Shown: positions 1,935-12,083, counted from the stretch's first letter. The stretch is DNA of 64,000 bases from Halomicrobium zhouii (GCF_900114435.1 NZ_FOZK01000004.1:186001-250000); one strand, 5' to 3'. Notes: generated by a model from the sequence alone, not told the origin. Translations and numbers: made by a program.

Positions 1935-2029
1935 GCGAGCGACTACGCTGCGGACACCGATAGTCCACGTGGGTGAGTCGCGTTCCCGGGTCACGGAACG
2001 CCGTGAAGCGAACCGTCGTGAACGACGCA

Positions 2030-2052
2030 CACACCCCGTGTGCGAAATGAAA
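2030..2052 (-). repeat. Isolated copy of the right-origin ORB-like repeat
   Basis: The forward strand reads CACCCCGTGTGCGAAATGA from 2032, with matching flanks on both sides. This is identical over its core to the copy at 9631-9653 in the right-hand origin. It lies alone, about 7.5 kb from that array, between the Bat-like gene and the xylanase gene. Confidence 0.8.
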
Positions 2053-2182: not shown

Positions 2183-5100
2183 TCAGTTCTCCTCTTCCTC
2201 GCTCGTCGACCGGGTCAGATACCGACCGACGCCGATCAGGCCGGCGACGGCCGAGGCGACGCCCATGCCGGGGCCGGACTCGTCTGTCACCTCGGTCGCG
2301 GTCGATTCGTCGGTCTCCTGGGCCGGCGGCGCGCCGCCCGGAGTCGGCGACGGCGTCGCAGTCGATTCCTCGGTGGCAGTCGACGTCGCCGTCGGGGTTG
2401 GCGACGCCGTCGGCGTCGCCGTCGAGTCGGAGCTGGAACGTGAATCGTCGTGGTCATCGTCGTCGTCGGAACTGGAGCGGTACGCGTCCATCAGGTCGAC
2501 GTCCGGCTCCTCAGGCGGCTCGTAGCTCGTCGAGACGTCGACCTCGACGGTGCCCGTGTCGTCGGAGACCGTTGCGTACTTCGTCGTCTCCTCGTCGTCG
2601 ACGGTGACGATGATCGCGTACTCGCCCTTGAACGCTCCCGAGACGGCGAGCGAGCCCTCGCCGTCCGTCGCGCCGGTCTCGTTCGTCCACCACTGGTTGA
2701 ACACGAGGTCTTTGTACTTCGCGAGCGCCGGCTTGGGGTTCCACTCGGCGTCGAAGAACGGCGCGTCGTCCCGCCAGTGGTAGGCGTCGTTTATCCCCCA
2801 CACGTCGAACTCCGCGACGGCTTCGTGGCTGAACGCCATCTTCAGGAACTGGTAGAAGTAGGTTCCCTTGTCCTCGTCCGACCAGTCGCCGTCGGTCATG
2901 TCCAGCTCGGAAATCCGGAGGTCCACGTCGTACTGGGCGTACTGGTTGAACGTCTCCATGAGCCTGACCGGCGAGAGCGTGGTGGACTCGTCGCTAAAGT
3001 GCGACTGCATCCCGGCGATGTCGAGGCCCGCGTCCTGGTTCGCGAGGAATTCGATCTGGGACTCGTACTTGGTCTGCTTGCCGCCGTAGTTCCCGGTCAG
3101 CACGCTGTAGTCGTTGACCGCGAGCGACGTGCCCTCCGGCGCGGCGTCGCGGGCGGTCTGGTACCACGACGCCAGCGTGTCTGCGGTGAGGTACGCGTGG
3201 TCGCCGTCGGGCGTTTCGAGCAGGCCCGCGTCGTCGACGTCTTTCCCGTCGATGGCGGCCAGGAGGCCCGGCTTGTGGATGTGTTCGTTAGCGACCTCCC
3301 AGTCGTCGATGTAGTCGCCGTAATACTGGATGATCTCCTCGAGGTGCTCGTGCGTGCGTTCTTCGACGTATTCGGGGTCGAGTTCGGGGTCGGTGACGTT
3401 GCCGTCCTCGAACTCTACGCCCATCGCTCGCACGACGTCCATCGGGACCGCCCAGTTGCTGACGTCGCCCCACAGGGCCACGTGCCCGCGGACGTCGAGT
3501 CCGTTCTCGATGGCCCACTGGGTCCCGTAGTCGGCGGTGTACTTCTCTTCCTCCCAGAACCGCCACTTGTGCGCGTTCTCGAGGACGACCGTGTTGAACA
3601 GGTGTGGGATCTTCTCCCGGAACGTGTCTCCGGACTCCGTGTTCTCGACGAGGTGGGCGGCGTCGAGCGCCGTCCCGAAGTCGAACTCGTGTTCGTGCAT
3701 CGCGACCTGGACGTCCGCGTCGGAGACGGCGTTGCCGTCGCCGTCGACGACGTCCACCGAGAAGTCGGTCGTGCGGATGCTGTCGATGCGTGCGTCCGCG
3801 TTCGCCTCCCAGTTCTCGTTTCGCTCGTCCTCCCAGACCGGCAGGTCGGAGGTCGAGAGGTCCTGGCTGAAGTACAGCAGTGCCAGGCCACCGATGTCGA
3901 CGGTCTGGACGTCAGCACCGAGCCAGAACTCGGTCCACCAGGACTCGCCCTCGGCCGTCGGGTCGGACGCGTCACCAGCCTCGATCGGGAAGTAGTACCG
4001 TTTCCACTGCTGGCCGACCGAGGGATTGTTCTTCACGGTGAAGTCGGCGGACGAATCGGCCGAGTACCCCGTCTTGTAGGTGACATCGGCGCGTGAATTG
4101 TTGGGCGTCCGGAGGTACGCGACACCGAGCAGGACGTCCCCGCTCGAAATCGCTTGCTCAGGCACCTCGCCCTTGAAGGAGATGGCGTAATCGTTGCTGG
4201 GGTTCTGGGTGACGTCGAACCGGGCCGCCTCCGAGAACGGGACACCATCGCCGCTGACGTCGAGCGGGCGCGTCTTGTCACCGTATTCGCCCATGTCGAC
4301 GTCGTACGCCGCGAACGTGTCCGCTTCGTTGTTCGCGTAGACGAACTTCCCTGGCGAGAGTTCCATCGCGCTCAGGTCGTCGACCAGCGTCGAGTAGTAC
4401 TGGTCGTCGACGGCCGGCCACTCGGTGATGTCCTCGCCGCCGCCGCTGCCTGGAACACCACTTGGGAGCGAGTTGACGTCGGCATCTTGACCGAAGTCGA
4501 TCAGTGCGACGCCGCCGACCTCGACTGTCTGCTGCTGGAATCCGAGCTGGAACTGGACGTATGCATTGTCGGCATCGGAGTCCGTTCCGAATTCTATCGG
4601 GAAGTAGTAGCGCGTCCACTCGGAGGAAATCGTCGGCGATGTCGGTCCCTGATTATGGTTTCCGCTGTCGTTGCTGTCGACCGCGTGGAACTCGGCAATC
4701 GGACTATCCGACGGCGAGCGAAGGTATGCGACACCCAGCATGACGTCGCCCGCAGAGACCGCTCTAGGGAGCGTAGCGTACAGTTGAACGTCCCAGGGAT
4801 TGGCAGGCGACGACGTGATCTCGTACGCCCTCGCCTCCGCAAAGGGGGCGCCCTCCGCAGCCACGTCGATCGATGAGACCGAGCCGAAGTCTCCGGCTGT
4901 CTCGTAGAAGGTGTTTCGCGCAGCCGTTTCGCTCGTACCGTAGACGAACTCTCCCGAGGGAAGGCCCATCTCGCTCAGGTCGTCAGTCAGGTGGTCGTAG
5001 TACGGATCGACGAAGGTTCCTTGGGGTCCACGCGGGAGATCCCCGTAAGCAGCATTCTGGCCGAAGTTCAGGAGTGCAAACCCACCGACATCGACGGTTT

Positions 5101-5740
5101 GCTGGTCGAACCCGAGCCAGAACTGTACGTTCTGACCGGAACCGCTCGCATATTCAATTGGGCAATAGTATCGCTGCCACTCGGCCCCGATGTCGGGTTG
5201 CCACAGCGAGATATTGTTGGAGTTGGACGCGTAGAATTCGCCCGTGACGTTGCCCGCTGGGGCCCGGAGGTAGACAACTGCGAGCATCGCATCGTTCTCT
5301 TGAATTTCCGATGCAACGGTATCGGGAACATCAGCTTTGTATGCGACGTTCGTCTTCGCTTCGGGAGACGACGTGATATCGAACCGGGTCGCCTGCGTGA
5401 ACGGAACGTCGTCACCACTCACGTCGAGCGAACGGTCTACCGTTCCGTTTCCGCTAATATACGCGGAAACGTTATCGCTACTCCACGTATCGGCTTCGTT
5501 GTCGGCGAAAACGAACTCCGCTTCCGGGAGCCCCTGTCCGTTCTTGAGATCGTCGACGAGCGTCTGGTAGTACGGATCACCACCCGTATCCCACGTGTCC
5601 GGAGTCGCTGCGCTCGCGATTCCGGTCGCCGAACTTGCGATTCCACCCGCGACGCCGGCTGCTCCTATCGAACGCAGGAACGGACGACGCCCCACCCGAA
5701 GACGATCAGTTTCCTGATCATCCTGATCTGTATTCCGCAT
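2183..5740 (-). CDS. Secreted GH10 endo-1,4-beta-xylanase with three accessory modules
   Basis: This 1185-residue exported enzyme should hydrolyse beta-1,4-xylan outside the cell. A twin-arginine signal is present (RRPFLRS, residues 18-24, then an Ala/Gly-rich core). Three related modules follow at about 57-237, 247-427 and 448-633. Each starts with YYxxLxDDL and ends with a VxxGGxALxxFxQ pattern, resembling CBM4/9-type carbohydrate-binding folds. The GH10 domain covers about 650-1020, with the acid/base Glu819 in DWEVANE and the nucleophile Glu945 in RISELDM. A Ser/Thr/Pro-rich linker leads to a PGMG-hydrophobic-Arg tail near 1157-1180, resembling a PGF-CTERM sorting signal for archaeosortase. 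The gene is monocistronic with an AT-rich upstream region. The GH10 call is firm; binding specificity of the modules is unknown. Confidence 0.92.
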   Translation of the reverse strand: MRNTDQDDQETDRLRVGRRPFLRSIGAAGVAGGIASSATGIASAATPDTWDTGGDPYYQTLVDDLKNGQGLPEAEFVFADNEADTWSSDNVSAYISGNGTVDRSLDVSGDDVPFTQATRFDITSSPEAKTNVAYKADVPDTVASEIQENDAMLAVVYLRAPAGNVTGEFYASNSNNISLWQPDIGAEWQRYYCPIEYASGSGQNVQFWLGFDQQTVDVGGFALLNFGQNAAYGDLPRGPQGTFVDPYYDHLTDDLSEMGLPSGEFVYGTSETAARNTFYETAGDFGSVSSIDVAAEGAPFAEARAYEITSSPANPWDVQLYATLPRAVSAGDVMLGVAYLRSPSDSPIAEFHAVDSNDSGNHNQGPTSPTISSEWTRYYFPIEFGTDSDADNAYVQFQLGFQQQTVEVGGVALIDFGQDADVNSLPSGVPGSGGGEDITEWPAVDDQYYSTLVDDLSAMELSPGKFVYANNEADTFAAYDVDMGEYGDKTRPLDVSGDGVPFSEAARFDVTQNPSNDYAISFKGEVPEQAISSGDVLLGVAYLRTPNNSRADVTYKTGYSADSSADFTVKNNPSVGQQWKRYYFPIEAGDASDPTAEGESWWTEFWLGADVQTVDIGGLALLYFSQDLSTSDLPVWEDERNENWEANADARIDSIRTTDFSVDVVDGDGNAVSDADVQVAMHEHEFDFGTALDAAHLVENTESGDTFREKIPHLFNTVVLENAHKWRFWEEEKYTADYGTQWAIENGLDVRGHVALWGDVSNWAVPMDVVRAMGVEFEDGNVTDPELDPEYVEERTHEHLEEIIQYYGDYIDDWEVANEHIHKPGLLAAIDGKDVDDAGLLETPDGDHAYLTADTLASWYQTARDAAPEGTSLAVNDYSVLTGNYGGKQTKYESQIEFLANQDAGLDIAGMQSHFSDESTTLSPVRLMETFNQYAQYDVDLRISELDMTDGDWSDEDKGTYFYQFLKMAFSHEAVAEFDVWGINDAYHWRDDAPFFDAEWNPKPALAKYKDLVFNQWWTNETGATDGEGSLAVSGAFKGEYAIIVTVDDEETTKYATVSDDTGTVEVDVSTSYEPPEEPDVDLMDAYRSSSDDDDDHDDSRSSSDSTATPTASPTPTATSTATEESTATPSPTPGGAPPAQETDESTATEVTDESGPGMGVASAVAGLIGVGRYLTRSTSEEEEN

Positions 5741-7123: not shown

Positions 7124-8371
7124 TCACTGATCGACGTCGACGCGCGCGGGGTCGGGGTCCATCTTGAAGACGACGCTGGGCTCCCAGAGAAGCCGATGTT
7201 CCTTGTACGTCCCCTTCCCCATCCCGCCGTGTTCCTGGTTCGACTCGGTGACTTCGAGGAAGGCGAGTTCGCTGAGGAGCCCGCGGACCGTGTCGGTCGT
7301 CAGGTCGTCCGTTCCCTCCGACTCGCAGACCTTCCGGTAGACGTCGTAGATGACGGTGGTCCGGAACCAGTCGCGGTCGTCGGGCGTCTTCGACGTGAGG
7401 TTGGCGAGCGCGTAGAGGACGTACTTGCTGTGGGGTGGGAGTCCGGCGATGAGTTCTTTGAGACGCTCGACCTCGGCCTGTTCCTGGGCGAGTTCGAGGT
7501 GGTCCTCCCTGACCTCGCCGACGCCGTTGTTCTTGGCGTAGTCGCCGGCGTGACGAAGGAGGCGGATCGCTTTGCGTGCGTCCCCGTGTCGCTGGGCCGC
7601 GAGCGCCGCCGTCTTCGGGATGACGCCCGGTTCCAGGACCCCTTCCTGGAACGCGTCCTTGCGGTTTTCGAGAATCTGGCGCAGCTGCTCGCCGTCGTAG
7701 GGGTCGAAGATGAACTCGTTGTGCCCGAGGCTGCTCTTGACGCGTTCGGTCATCTGCTCGCGGAAGTTGACCTTGTTCGAGATGGAGATGATACCGATGG
7801 GGACGTCGACTTTCCCGGCCTCGCGGGCACGTGAGAGTAACATCAGGACGTTGTCGTCGCCGAGCCGGTCGACTTCGTCGAGCGTGATCAGCGCGGCGTC
7901 GTACTCGCGGTCTAAGATCTCCCAGAGTCGGTTGTAGTACTCGTTGGTCGAGATACCGCGCGTCGGCACCTTGACGCCGGTGCCCGGGCGGTTGACGCTG
8001 TCGGCGACCGTCTGGATGGTGTCCGCCTCTCCCTTTGCCTGCGCGCAATCGACGGTGACAGTCGCGAGGCGATTGCCACGGCGCTCGGCCTCGTCACGAG
8101 CGCGTTCCATGACGTGATTCGCGACGAGTGACTTTCCCGACCCGGTCTTGCCGTACAGGATGACGGAGTTCGGCGGGACGCCCGTCACGGCCGGACCGAC
8201 CTCGTTGGCCAGCTCCCGGATGTGGTCGTCGCGACCGACGATCCGGTTCTGGTCCGGGACGTGGTCGATGTTCAGTAGCTCACGGTTCGCGAAGACGTCG
8301 TTCCCGCCGCCAGCGTCCACGTCGCTGAAGAGGTTGTCACCCCCGGATCCCCCGTCGCTCCCCTCGTTCAT
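7124..8371 (-). CDS. orc: Orc1/Cdc6 replication initiator A
   Basis: This is a 415-residue initiator ATPase that binds origin repeats and promotes origin opening and MCM loading. It has Walker A GKTGSGKS (residues 74-81), Walker B LITLDEVD (161-168), the Cdc6-type HGDARKAIRLLRHAG sensor-2 region, and a C-terminal winged helix. The frame stays open to 8494, but that extension would run through an origin repeat, so the ATG at 8371 is chosen. A TTTTTGAA element lies about 27 nt upstream, implying a leaderless transcript. A repeat copy at 8413-8425 directly abuts this promoter, which would allow autoregulation. It is divergent from the second orc gene at 10519. Confidence 0.93.
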   Translation of the reverse strand: MNEGSDGGSGGDNLFSDVDAGGGNDVFANRELLNIDHVPDQNRIVGRDDHIRELANEVGPAVTGVPPNSVILYGKTGSGKSLVANHVMERARDEAERRGNRLATVTVDCAQAKGEADTIQTVADSVNRPGTGVKVPTRGISTNEYYNRLWEILDREYDAALITLDEVDRLGDDNVLMLLSRAREAGKVDVPIGIISISNKVNFREQMTERVKSSLGHNEFIFDPYDGEQLRQILENRKDAFQEGVLEPGVIPKTAALAAQRHGDARKAIRLLRHAGDYAKNNGVGEVREDHLELAQEQAEVERLKELIAGLPPHSKYVLYALANLTSKTPDDRDWFRTTVIYDVYRKVCESEGTDDLTTDTVRGLLSELAFLEVTESNQEHGGMGKGTYKEHRLLWEPSVVFKMDPDPARVDVDQ

Positions 8372-8404
8372 ACAGACGCTATCCACGACCACATTCAAAA
8401 ACGT

Positions 8405-9400
8405 TACCACTAGATTCCGAGTTAGATCCCCTCCCTCGCGCCGATCCAGAGCCAGTACAGCGGTTTTCTGGGTAACTACGAATTCGGTTGACACCCCCCT
8501 GATTCCGAGTTAGCGGCTGTGTGCGGGCATCCCATAGTCTACCGGGACGGCGGTGAATCGATGGGAACACCGAGCGACCACCCCGACGAGATGTGGACCA
8601 ATAGCTGATCGGGTGAACCGGACGTGATCGTGTGAAGGTGAATCGAACGGCCGGTAGATAGTCGGAGCGCGTTCCCTCCCCGGGAAGGTGGACGACACAC
8701 CCGATTCCGAGTTAGATATCGACCGACCGAACGGCTTTCGAGACGGGGGCGAGGAGAGAGACACCTCATTCCGAGTTAGTATTCACCGGACGAGAAGCCG
8801 ATCAGAGAGGATTGTTCTGATCAACACACCCGATTCCGAGTTAGTAGCCCGGTCGGCTCGGCGGCGACGGTCAAACGAACGAGATGCGAGGGAGCCGGAC
8901 GGCCGAACGGCCGAGCGTCCGGTAGCGACCATCTCGTTCGTTCTACCCGCCATATTTGGATTTCGGAAGGGAACGTCTGGAGGGAAGGAGAGTTCGGTGA
9001 GGGACACACACACCTGATTCCGAGTTAGTTCGGCCGAGGGAGAGGGAGAGCAGTAGTGAAGGGAGCGGGAAGAGTAGCAGGCAAGAAGGTACGAAAGGTC
9101 GGAGAGAACACGCCGCCAAAAACGGTCTACTCGTTCGTACCCGAGTGCGACCTGGACCACCCCGTCTGGTTCTGTCGTCTTCCTCGTTCTTTCTCCTAAC
9201 TCTCTAGTACTCGTTCTAGTACTCGTTTTCTAGTACCCGTTCTCTAGTACTCGTCGTTTCCTCTATCTCGTTTCTTCTTCTAGCCTATTCTAGAAACTAG
9301 TAACTAGTATCGACACACCTGATTCCGAGTTAGTTCACGCCGCTCTCGACTCCTCCCCCTCGCTCGATACCCGACTAACTCGGAATCAGGTGTGTGTGTG
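8405..9400. other. Origin-like array A (GATTCCGAGTTAG repeats) next to orc A
   Basis: The core GATTCCGAGTTAG occurs on the plus strand at 8413, 8501, 8703, 8767 (first base C), 8832, 9016 and 9321, and inverted at 9375-9387. Most copies are preceded by GACACACC(T). The last direct copy and the inverted copy face each other across about 41 bp. The non-coding location beside an orc1/cdc6 gene and the repeat character match archaeal origin recognition boxes. Sequence spacing is irregular, so this is not a CRISPR. Origin activity is inferred. Confidence 0.8.
9204..9255 (+). repeat. CTAGTACTCGTT short tandem repeat inside origin array A
   Basis: Four near-identical 12-mers CTAGTACTCGTT start at 9204, 9216, 9230 and 9244, the last two with single changes. 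The stretch is pyrimidine-rich and AT-richer than its surroundings. More CTAG steps follow to about 9310. It could be the unwinding element of array A. Confidence 0.75.
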
Positions 9401-9494
9401 TCCCCGTCGACTTCTCACGAGTCGTGGACGTTTCCCGAGTGGAGGTGAGGGTTCGAGAGACGTCGACCGATCCTGGAGGTCAAGCCGGGACGGG

Positions 9495-10346
9495 ACACCG
9501 TGTGCGAAATGATTTCTAGAGGGATCTTCGAGCTTCCCATAGAGAGGGACTGTTCTGCCCGATCCTCACTTGTCTCTCGAATAGGAGGATGGAACGGGAA
9601 TCCCCGAGAAGAGGGTTTTAAAAACACACCCACACCCCGTGTGCGAAATGAAACGGGAAAATAGCGTGGGCGGGTGATCAGACGGCGTCCGAGCGTCAGG
9701 GTATCGGATTCGGCCGATGAACTTCGAGGGAAGACGCAGTCGAGGGGGGACCCCTGCGATGGAAACTCCAAACAGGAGAAAAGTTTATTTACGGGGGTGT
9801 CTAACCATATCCGTAGGACATCACCTCACAACAACTGTTAACTAAATATCCATTTCCTAGTTGGATATCGAGAAAACCCGCCAAAACATCCGGAAGAGAT
9901 GCTGTCCCGCCGCTCCACGGTGCGTCGTTCCGACTGACCCACTGCTGCCTCGTTCGAACCACCACACCTCTCCGCCGAATTCATTTCGCACACGGGGTGT
10001 GTGTCCCCTCCCCCTGGAGTCCCCCCAGTTCGCTCGACTCTCCTCGAATCACCCCCAGTTCGCTCGATCCCCCCTCGAACCATCCCACTCGATCGAGACT
10101 ATCCGGGCGATGTCGTATCCCGACTGGCCGAAAATCGGTCCCAGCCGGATCCAGATTGGGTTCGACGGATCGTTCCGGTCGTCTCTTCCCACCTCAGATG
10201 TCCGTAAACGCCACATTTCATTTCGCACACGGGGGGTGGGCAACCGTCTCTCCGGCGATGCAACCGTTTCTCCGGCGATACTTCGCTAGCGGTCGAACTC
10301 CTCGCGGTTTCCTCGCGGTTTCATTTCGCACACGGGGTGTGTCCCC
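9495..10346. other. Origin-like array B (CACCCCGTGTGCGAAATGA repeats) next to orc B
   Basis: Copies of a second repeat flank an AT-rich segment. Two lie to the left, in one orientation: a degenerate copy at 9495-9512 and a full copy at 9631-9653. Three lie to the right, in the opposite orientation: 9982-10008, 10216-10240 and 10319-10346. Inverted origin recognition boxes around an AT-rich duplex unwinding element, beside an orc1/cdc6 gene, are the standard layout of a haloarchaeal origin. A partial copy (ATCGCACACGG) lies at 10468-10477, just upstream of the orc B TATA box. Origin activity is inferred. Confidence 0.85.
9771..9885. other. Candidate duplex unwinding element of origin B
   Basis: This is the AT-richest segment between the inverted repeats. 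It contains AGTTTATTTACG, TGTTAACTAAATATCC and an inverted repeat (ATATCCA at 9846-9852 and TGGATAT at 9862-9868). Its position between oppositely oriented repeats makes it the likely site of strand opening. Confidence 0.6.
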
Positions 10347-10488
10347 AGCCAGGCACAACTCCTCCCGGCGGGCTGGCGGTAATTCCTGAACTCGTTCGCG
10401 GTGTATTGTAAGAATTCCTATACGGGGGATAGAGGCCCGGAGGTGTCGGATTCAGAAATATTTGCCATCGCACACGGTTGGCGTACTT

Positions 10489-10495
10489 TTTTATA
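10489..10495 (+). promoter_or_regulatory. TATA box of orc B
   Basis: TTTTATA lies 24-30 nt before the ATG at 10519, which implies a leaderless transcript. A partial array-B repeat sits immediately upstream, consistent with initiator autoregulation. Confidence 0.65.
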
Positions 10496-10518
10496 CTTTC
10501 CACTACCAGTACTCTCCA

Positions 10519-11871
10519 ATGTCTGAGGGGGAGGAACAGGTCTCGGTCGACGACGACCAGCAGTCCATCCAGGAACGGCTCCAGGCCGGGACGCACAAGT
10601 CGGTGTTCCGGGACAAGAGCCTCGTCGAGCCCGACACCATCATCGACGAGAACCGCATCGTCGGCCGGGACGACCAGCTCGACGACATCATCACCTATCT
10701 CCGCCCCTCGATCCAGGGGGACCGGCCGCCAAACATGCTCCTGTACGGGCCATCCGGGACGGGGAAGTCGCTCATCATCAACGCCGTCTGCGAACAGATC
10801 GTCGAGATATCCGACTCGAACGGCCAGCGCTTCGGCGTCGTCGAGATCAACTGCCAGACGATCAAGTCTCACGATCGCGCGGTGTACAAGCTCGTGGAGA
10901 CGGCCGCCGACAGCATCGGCATCGACCCCGGCGTCCCGCGCAAGGGCATCTCCACAGACGAGAAACTCGACCGGCTCTACGAGCTGATCAACGACAACTT
11001 CGACTCCGTCATCATCATCCTCGACGAGATCGACCTCCTCCACGGTCGTCGTCGCGGAACCGACGAGGAGCCCGCCTACTCCCGTCTCCTCTACCAGCTC
11101 TCGCGAGCGGAGAAACTCGGCAAGATAGAGGGCTGTGTCTCCGTCGCGGCGCTCACCAACGACCCGGGGTTCATGGAGGACCTGGACGGGCGCGCGGAGA
11201 GTTCGTTCAACCCCCAGGACGTCGCGTTCCCGGACTACGACGCCAACCAGCTCCGGTCGATCCTCCGGCGTCGGCGCGACGCGTTCCGCGAGGACGCGTT
11301 GAAGGAGGACGTCATCCCGCTCATCGCCGCGTTCGCGGCCCAGAGCCACGGCGACGCGCGGAAGGCCATCGACCTCTTCCGGAAGGCCGGCGAGATCGCG
11401 AACCGGAACGACGCCGACGTCGTCACCGAGCCCCACGCCCGGAACGCCCAGGAGGAGTTCGAGAAGGACCGGACGCTCACCCAGATCGAGGGCCTCTCGA
11501 CCCAGAAGAAGCTCTCGCTGTACGCGACGGCGGCGGTGCAGGTGTACGCGGACGAGGACATCGACTCGGTCCCGGGGACCGTCGGCTTCGCGGTGTACGA
11601 GTACCTCACCGACCTGCTCGACACCGACGAGAAGTCCCGCGACACCTACCTGCGGTACATGAACGAACTCGACACCTATGGCATGGTCACGTCCGAACGG
11701 CGGAGTCGCGGGTTCGGCCGGGGCGTCCACAAGGAGTACACGTTCACCGACGACCCCGACGTCGTCGCCGAGACGCTTCGCGAGGACTCGCGTCTCTCCG
11801 ACCTCGAGGCGGACGAGGACCTGGTTCGCTCCGTCGTCAACGCGCAGGTCGCGGACTTCCTCAGCAAGTGA
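10519..11871 (+). CDS. orc: Orc1/Cdc6 replication initiator B
   Basis: This 450-residue AAA+ initiator is distinct from initiator A. It has Walker A GPSGTGKS (77-84), Walker B IIILDEID (165-172), the HGDARKAIDLFRKAGEIA region and a C-terminal winged-helix domain ending with FGRGVHKEYTF and a helical tail. A TTG at 10462 opens the same frame, but the ATG at 10519 has the right distance from a TATA box and begins the usual acidic N-terminus. It lies directly right of array B, and one more array-B repeat follows the gene at 12059. The pairing suggests that this protein reads the array-B repeats, which is inference. Confidence 0.94.
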   Translation: MSEGEEQVSVDDDQQSIQERLQAGTHKSVFRDKSLVEPDTIIDENRIVGRDDQLDDIITYLRPSIQGDRPPNMLLYGPSGTGKSLIINAVCEQIVEISDSNGQRFGVVEINCQTIKSHDRAVYKLVETAADSIGIDPGVPRKGISTDEKLDRLYELINDNFDSVIIILDEIDLLHGRRRGTDEEPAYSRLLYQLSRAEKLGKIEGCVSVAALTNDPGFMEDLDGRAESSFNPQDVAFPDYDANQLRSILRRRRDAFREDALKEDVIPLIAAFAAQSHGDARKAIDLFRKAGEIANRNDADVVTEPHARNAQEEFEKDRTLTQIEGLSTQKKLSLYATAAVQVYADEDIDSVPGTVGFAVYEYLTDLLDTDEKSRDTYLRYMNELDTYGMVTSERRSRGFGRGVHKEYTFTDDPDVVAETLREDSRLSDLEADEDLVRSVVNAQVADFLSK

Positions 11872-12058
11872 CCGCCGTTCGGTCGTGCACGGTTTCTGGA
11901 CCTGTCGCCAGGTGCACTCGGAGCTGTCCCAACGTGCCCTGTGGACCCGTAGGAGGCCGTTTCTCTTGCCGTAAACCACTCCTACTCAGATTCTCTCGTT
12001 CGGATATTCCGATCTGAAAACCGCCACCAAAACCTCTGTATCGGCGGTTCTGTACACA

Positions 12059-12083
12059 TTTCATTTCGCACACGGGGGGTGGG
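12059..12083 (+). repeat. Array-B repeat downstream of orc B
   Basis: TTTCATTTCGCACACGGGG, followed by GGTGGG, matches the 10216-10240 copy base for base. It lies 190 bp after the orc B stop codon. Confidence 0.8.

Follow-up and report, generated by a model that had tools for sequence, protein, structure and literature searches.

The DNA analysed here (referred to as the window) is a 64,000-nucleotide stretch of the Halomicrobium zhouii genome (GCF_900114435.1, NZ_FOZK01000004.1:186001-250000) that contains two divergent orc1/cdc6 genes about 2.1 kb apart. We consider it likely that this locus is a double origin, in which two complete orc1/cdc6 replicator modules, belonging to different Orc clades and mostly plasmid-borne, have been joined head to head. 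A preliminary description had read the locus as two origins of complete appearance, each having its own initiator and repeat family; this view is supported by the intact genes, by the repeats themselves, and by solo counterparts with the same layout in other genomes. The coordinates of all features are given in Table 1.

The gap between the two genes measures 2147 bp and is gene-free according to gene calls on the window. Both predicted proteins exceed 300 aa and contain AAA+, Cdc6 lid and Cdc6_C winged-helix domains (Pfam, TIGR02928). The left and right Orcs are only 35–37% identical to each other and fall into separate clades of the tree. A local duplication of one origin is ruled out by this low identity, by the different clades, and by the different cores of the two families of origin recognition boxes (ORBs). 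Neither Orc groups in the tree with the orc of the main contig (L001), which is assumed to be oriC1-like.

The left half of the gap contains eight copies of GATTCCGAGTTAG (ORB-L) at ≤1 mismatch, located between 8413 and 9387, seven on the plus strand and one on the minus strand. Five exact copies of CATTTCGCACACGG (ORB-R) are found in the right half, two on the minus strand (9498 and 9637) and three on the plus strand (9982, 10219 and 10322), surrounding an AT-rich segment. The preliminary description had given the same numbers for both halves and the same inverted arrangement for the right one. The ORB-R family extends beyond the gap with two more exact copies: one at 12062, shortly after the 3′ end of the right orc, and a minus-strand copy at 2036, 5 kb to the left of the left orc. 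In shuffled sequence, ORB-L occurs 1.08 times on average and none of 100 shuffles reaches eight copies; for ORB-R, the mean is 0.40 and no shuffle reaches seven. Exact searches of the whole 4.25 Mb genome return eight sites for the ORB-L core TTCCGAGTTAG, all at this locus, and seven for the ORB-R core, consisting of the five gap copies and those at 12062 and 2036; neither core was found elsewhere in the genome. Chance occurrence of the repeats is ruled out by these shuffles and searches.

AT content reaches one maximum in each half, about 0.59 at 9200–9299 and at 9750–9899, compared to about 0.40 in the surrounding DNA. The left maximum falls in the interval from ORB-L copy 6 to the inverted copy 8, and the right maximum in that between the inverted ORB-R copies at 9637 and 9982, such that several ORBs are inverted around an AT-rich segment in each half and the left half has an inverted pair and an AT-rich segment of its own. 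The two modules are about 90 bp apart, measured from the end of the final ORB-L (9405) to the start of the first ORB-R (9495). The two ORB families differ in their cores and have in common a G/T-rich tail ending in GTGTGTCCCC (GGTGTGTGTG in ORB-L, GGGGTGTGTG in ORB-R). This tail is like the G-string at one end of the ORB, a halophile-specific feature (PMC4010727).

Left-type Orcs (73–87% identity) were found at eight other loci, all of which have ORB-L; one of these (L165) starts at a contig end, and its ORB-L is a single copy downstream. The carriers include plasmids of Haloarcula marina and Halocatena marina and the chromosome of H. marismortui, among others, and the left Orc is 87% identical to the solo Orc of the Haloarcula marina plasmid. 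The promoter-proximal ORB-L doublet, with a spacing of 86–88 bp, is kept in solo loci L119, L120, L161, L162, L163 and L166, and in most left-type loci whose upstream region is covered. An AT-rich segment likewise lies between the equivalents of ORB-L copies 6 and inverted 8 in L119. The distance of the first ORB-L from the left start codon, about 42 bp, is kept in all four loci compared, which suggests self-regulation of the left orc. The ORB-L set was not found in about 20 loci whose Orcs are ≤57% identical; L121 and L122, two inspected loci in this range, carry a related but different repeat. No solo left-type locus contains ORB-R, and no divergent orc was found within 4 kb upstream at the other left-type loci.

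Right-type Orcs (63–73% identity) occur at about 35 solo loci with ORB-R at conserved positions. The typical layout comprises an inverted ORB-R pair about 350 bp apart (345 bp here, compared to ∼324–409 bp in the solo loci), at least one copy nearer the gene, and several copies 3′ of the gene, located at about +1350 to +1640 in the solo loci. Some solo carriers are plasmids with a single Orc, such as Halorarius halobius unnamed4 and H. mukohataei NC_013201 (pHmuk01). ORB-R is missing or down to one or two weak copies where the Orc is ≤62% identical, and no solo right-type locus contains the ORB-L set. One right-type locus (L190:8477-14400) has 14 ORB-R copies over about 6 kb on both sides of the orc. 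A right-type relative with 61% identity (L061:9000-10010) apparently has two ORB variants, ACACCCCGTGTGCAAAATGA on one side and TTTCACTTCGATGATGGGGGG on the other.

Wu et al. (2012, PMC3528665) defined origin families by Orc identity of at least 80% together with the same ORB. Left-type relatives with 82–87% identical Orcs and ORB-L belong to one family with the left module by this definition. The right Orc is up to 72.7% identical to plasmid Orcs, which is the best value outside strain HArc-gm2 and is below the 80% limit; the right module thus appears to be a diverged relative of the pHmuk01-like family, with which it shares both ORB and layout.

Each repeat family tracks only its own Orc clade, and it is chiefly this cross-genome linkage that points to a separate specificity for each half. 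Stand-alone versions of both modules, with matching repeats and layout, strongly imply two specificities. The linkage agrees with that published for Orc and ORB in haloarchaea (PMC3528665) and with the finding that each Cdc6 of H. hispanica acts on its own adjacent origin (PMC3936714).

The same pair is present in HArc-gm2 (L022; L022 and G281 C15 are one HArc-gm2 record), in the same order and with the same junction. A misassembly is ruled out, as the junction is repeated in this separate assembly with ∼92–96% nucleotide identity over most of the region. Between the two strains, the ratio of nonsynonymous to synonymous substitution rates (dN/dS) is 0.065 for the left orc, which has no stops (synonymous rate, dS, 0.16), and 0.026 for the right orc (dS 0.15), indicating strong purifying selection on both genes. 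Conservation is higher within the repeats than around them. ORB-L identity in the left half, aligned in two pieces on either side of an insertion in HArc-gm2, is 0.957 versus 0.673 outside the repeats (7 of 20,000 random placements are as good), and ORB-R identity in the right half is 0.992 versus 0.814 (5 of 20,000).

In the double origin proposed here, the left Orc would load on ORB-L and melt the segment at 9.2–9.3 kb, while the right Orc would load on ORB-R and melt the segment at 9.75–9.9 kb. Bidirectional replication could then start from either module, with each orc transcribed outward in the direction of the fork. The promoter-proximal ORB-L would allow the left Orc to regulate its own gene. 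The arrangement likely arose when two plasmids recombined, or when the plasmid of one origin captured the other; among the explanations offered in the preliminary description, a captured second replicon gives the best fit.

The genome consists of six contigs, and the window corresponds to C4:186001-250000. C4 (260,211 bp) is a 260 kb secondary, plasmid-like replicon of Halomicrobium. It is probably circular, because its ends (C4:1-95 and 260117-260211) share 95 identical bases with an exact match nowhere else, with the certainty lowered by a local tandem repeat that includes a partial copy.

Several observations weigh against the proposed double origin. The left module of HArc-gm2 is split between ORB-L copies 2 and 3 by a 1.4 kb insert (L022:6745-8144) encoding an IS605 OrfB/TnpB-type protein of 417 aa, which the window strain does not have; because this element splits the module, full left-origin function may be unneeded in HArc-gm2. 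The head-to-head pair need not be the sole origin of C4, because C4 carries another full orc, its third, at 70 kb, with repeats of its own. GC skew of C4 gives no usable signal, with no clear start at the locus.

It is conceivable, at appreciably lower probability than two working modules, that only one half fires, most likely the right, and that a plasmid fusion left the other as a dormant or decaying remnant, retained as a regulated gene or as a backup. Dormant origins are documented in Haloferax mediterranei (PMC4595724). The left half, besides being split in HArc-gm2, diverges faster between strains outside its ORBs than the right half does. However, the left orc has a low dN/dS and no stops, all eight ORB-L copies are kept even across the insertion, and the left layout matches that of stand-alone origins.

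The close head-to-head arrangement, supposed to be unusual in the preliminary description, proved rare in surveys of loci, genomes and plasmids. Among 57 right-type loci, some of them shortened by contig ends, only three (L022, L074 and L077) show a divergent orc in the 4 kb upstream. No divergent pair <5 kb apart was found among ∼284 Orcs in 45 genomes at an E-value cut-off of 1e-60, which omits short or distant Orcs; pairs in this census were read by eye. The nearest divergent gaps were 5.15 and 5.5 kb, with open reading frames (ORFs) between the genes, and four apparent pairs were rejected as their orcs lay across contig starts. Close divergent pairs of short or distant Orcs, below the cut-off, exist in two genomes (G198 and G217), the G198 pair having no direct-repeat family in its gap. 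In G182, the genes of a divergent pair are 3.5 kb apart and separated by two ORFs, with inverted repeats on one side only. None of 72,556 plasmid records matches most of the pair or carries both halves, and the open-licence literature yielded no report of closely spaced divergent orc genes with two families of ORB.

The chromosome of Halosimplex pelagicum R2 (L074:7063-11520) contains a divergent orc pair about 1.6 kb apart with two ORB families. Five direct GTTTGGAGTGAG repeats and one inverted copy surround an AT-rich stretch on its left side; on its right side, an inverted TACACATCGCAA..GGGGG pair surrounds another AT-rich stretch, with more copies 3′ of the right orc. Judged by these features, L074 represents an independent example of a head-to-head pair. 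L077 (J07AB56) is a partial pair and may be a third example, with Ns in its gap that bar judging the left origin. In the tree, the left partners of the window, L074 and L077 pairs fall in one broad Orc clade and the right partners in another, with deep branches that are long and partly unsupported, so that the pairing may have arisen repeatedly or may be old and followed by losses.

An alternative is one composite origin, to which both initiators bind and whose repeat sets cooperate with or exclude each other, timing initiation at a single locus. In its favor, the modules abut within 90 bp, Halosimplex pelagicum has a second pair, with two repeat families of its own, and J07AB56 a partial third, and all three draw their partners from the same two broad clades. 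We regard this alternative as unlikely. Cooperation is not required, because each module is complete and stands alone elsewhere, and the action of each H. hispanica Cdc6 on its own adjacent origin also argues against it. Similarly doubtful is the extended proposal that close head-to-head pairing of one Orc from each broad clade has been selected and assembled repeatedly in haloarchaea as a composite origin, where two initiators of differing specificity share a locus and influence each other's firing. That the repeats are mainly Orc-dependent regulatory sites and not origins, as might be suggested by the conserved position of the first ORB-L and by an outlying ORB-R next to a regulator gene, is very improbable, given that inverted pairs around AT-rich segments with conserved spacing are published marks of haloarchaeal origins (PMC3936714) and that the solo carriers are plasmids, which need an origin.

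Table 1. Features of the two proposed origin modules and an outlying repeat (positions in the window).
Feature	Position	Strand	Remarks
Left orc1/cdc6, 415 aa, left-type clade	7124..8371	-	TIGR02928, 439.6 bits
ORB-L doublet, promoter-proximal	8408..8513	+	Copies at 8413 and 8501, 88 bp apart
ORB-L copies 3-6 (8703, 8767, 8832, 9016)	8695..9028	+	One orientation
Left-origin AT-rich segment, candidate unwinding element	9150..9308		AT 0.52-0.59 vs ~0.40 around
ORB-L copy 7	9313..9333	+	
ORB-L copy 8, inverted, with G/T-rich tail; outer edge of left module	9375..9405	-	Inverted arms 9004-9059 and 9344-9399
Inter-module junction, no gene, neither repeat	9406..9494		Order kept in HArc-gm2
ORB-R copy 1, tail variant ACACCG	9495..9514	-	
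ORB-R copy 2, left arm of inverted pair	9629..9653	-	345 bp from plus-strand partner
Right-origin AT-rich segment, candidate unwinding element	9750..9899		AT 0.58-0.59
ORB-R copy 3, right arm of inverted pair	9979..10003	+	
ORB-R copies 4 and 5 (10219, 10322)	10216..10342	+	
Right orc1/cdc6, 450 aa, right-type clade	10519..11871	+	TIGR02928, 381.5 bits
ORB-R copy 6, 3′ of right orc; standing feature of right-type origin family	12059..12083	+	
Outlying full-length ORB-R	2028..2052	-	Adjoins 5′ end of BAT/HTH_10 gene (1293-2030, -)

The outlying ORB-R is a 25-nt perfect match to the origin copies and is kept in HArc-gm2. It stands alone about 7.5 kb from the origin copies, and the BAT/HTH_10 regulator gene that it adjoins is a possible candidate for control by Orc. 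The neighboring region (2183-5740) encodes a predicted secreted protein of 1185 aa with a GH10 (xylanase family) domain. This gene is absent from the corresponding site of HArc-gm2, where the flanks are about 0.3 kb apart.

Elsewhere on C4, the region of the third orc (L156:9271-12700, C4:69270-72700) has two repeat families, one of them TTTTTCACATCGATCACGGGG-like, and a fragment of a broken orc nearby. These features may reflect origin turnover. A low-GC stretch of C4, at about 30–95 kb, suggests a mosaic replicon.

Haloarchaeal replicons often have multiple origins, which the literature explains by the capture of mobile replicator modules. At the double origin proposed here, two such modules appear side by side in joined form, both intact and both under selection in two strains, which opens capture to study at one locus. 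The locus is also a small natural system in which to ask whether two initiator systems 90 bp apart act independently, compete or cooperate, and whether the Orc-ORB pair alone sets origin specificity.

Both modules resemble known origins. Left-type origins of the Haloarcula marina 187 kb plasmid, the Halocatena marina 317 kb plasmids and the Haloarcula marismortui chromosome have Orcs with 81–87% identity and the ORB ATTCCGAGTTAG in common with the left module, as well as the 88 bp promoter-proximal doublet and inverted copies around an AT-rich segment. However, the left-type origin is solo in all other genomes examined except HArc-gm2, whereas here it is paired. Similarly, pHmuk01 of Halomicrobium mukohataei, Haloterrigena turkmenica NC_013745 and Halorarius halobius unnamed4 share with the right module an Orc of 68–73% identity, the same ORB-R sequence, an inverted pair at comparable spacing, and more ORBs 3′ of the orc. 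This family stands alone elsewhere, while here it is abutted by a second origin.

The Halosimplex pelagicum pair is the same in plan, with divergent genes, two ORB families, an inverted pair and an AT-rich segment for each, and the right family also present 3′ of its orc. It differs in Orc subfamilies (the left Orcs are 38% and the right 47% identical), in its ORBs, and in its chromosomal location; no published description of it was found in the open-licence literature. The Hla_3512 locus of Halorubrum lacusprofundi and the HQ2959A locus of Haloquadratum walsbyi, each with two candidate origins adjoining one orc (Wu et al. 2012, PMC3528665), also have two ORB families and separate candidate AT-rich regions in neighboring intergenic DNA. 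However, a single orc serving two repeat families (Wu 2012, Fig. 3) is not what is found here, as there are two orcs, each tied to its own repeats elsewhere, and each half has a cognate orc and a stand-alone counterpart. By these comparisons, the parts appear to be ordinary and their joining rare: known solo origin families combined in a rare double-origin replicator.

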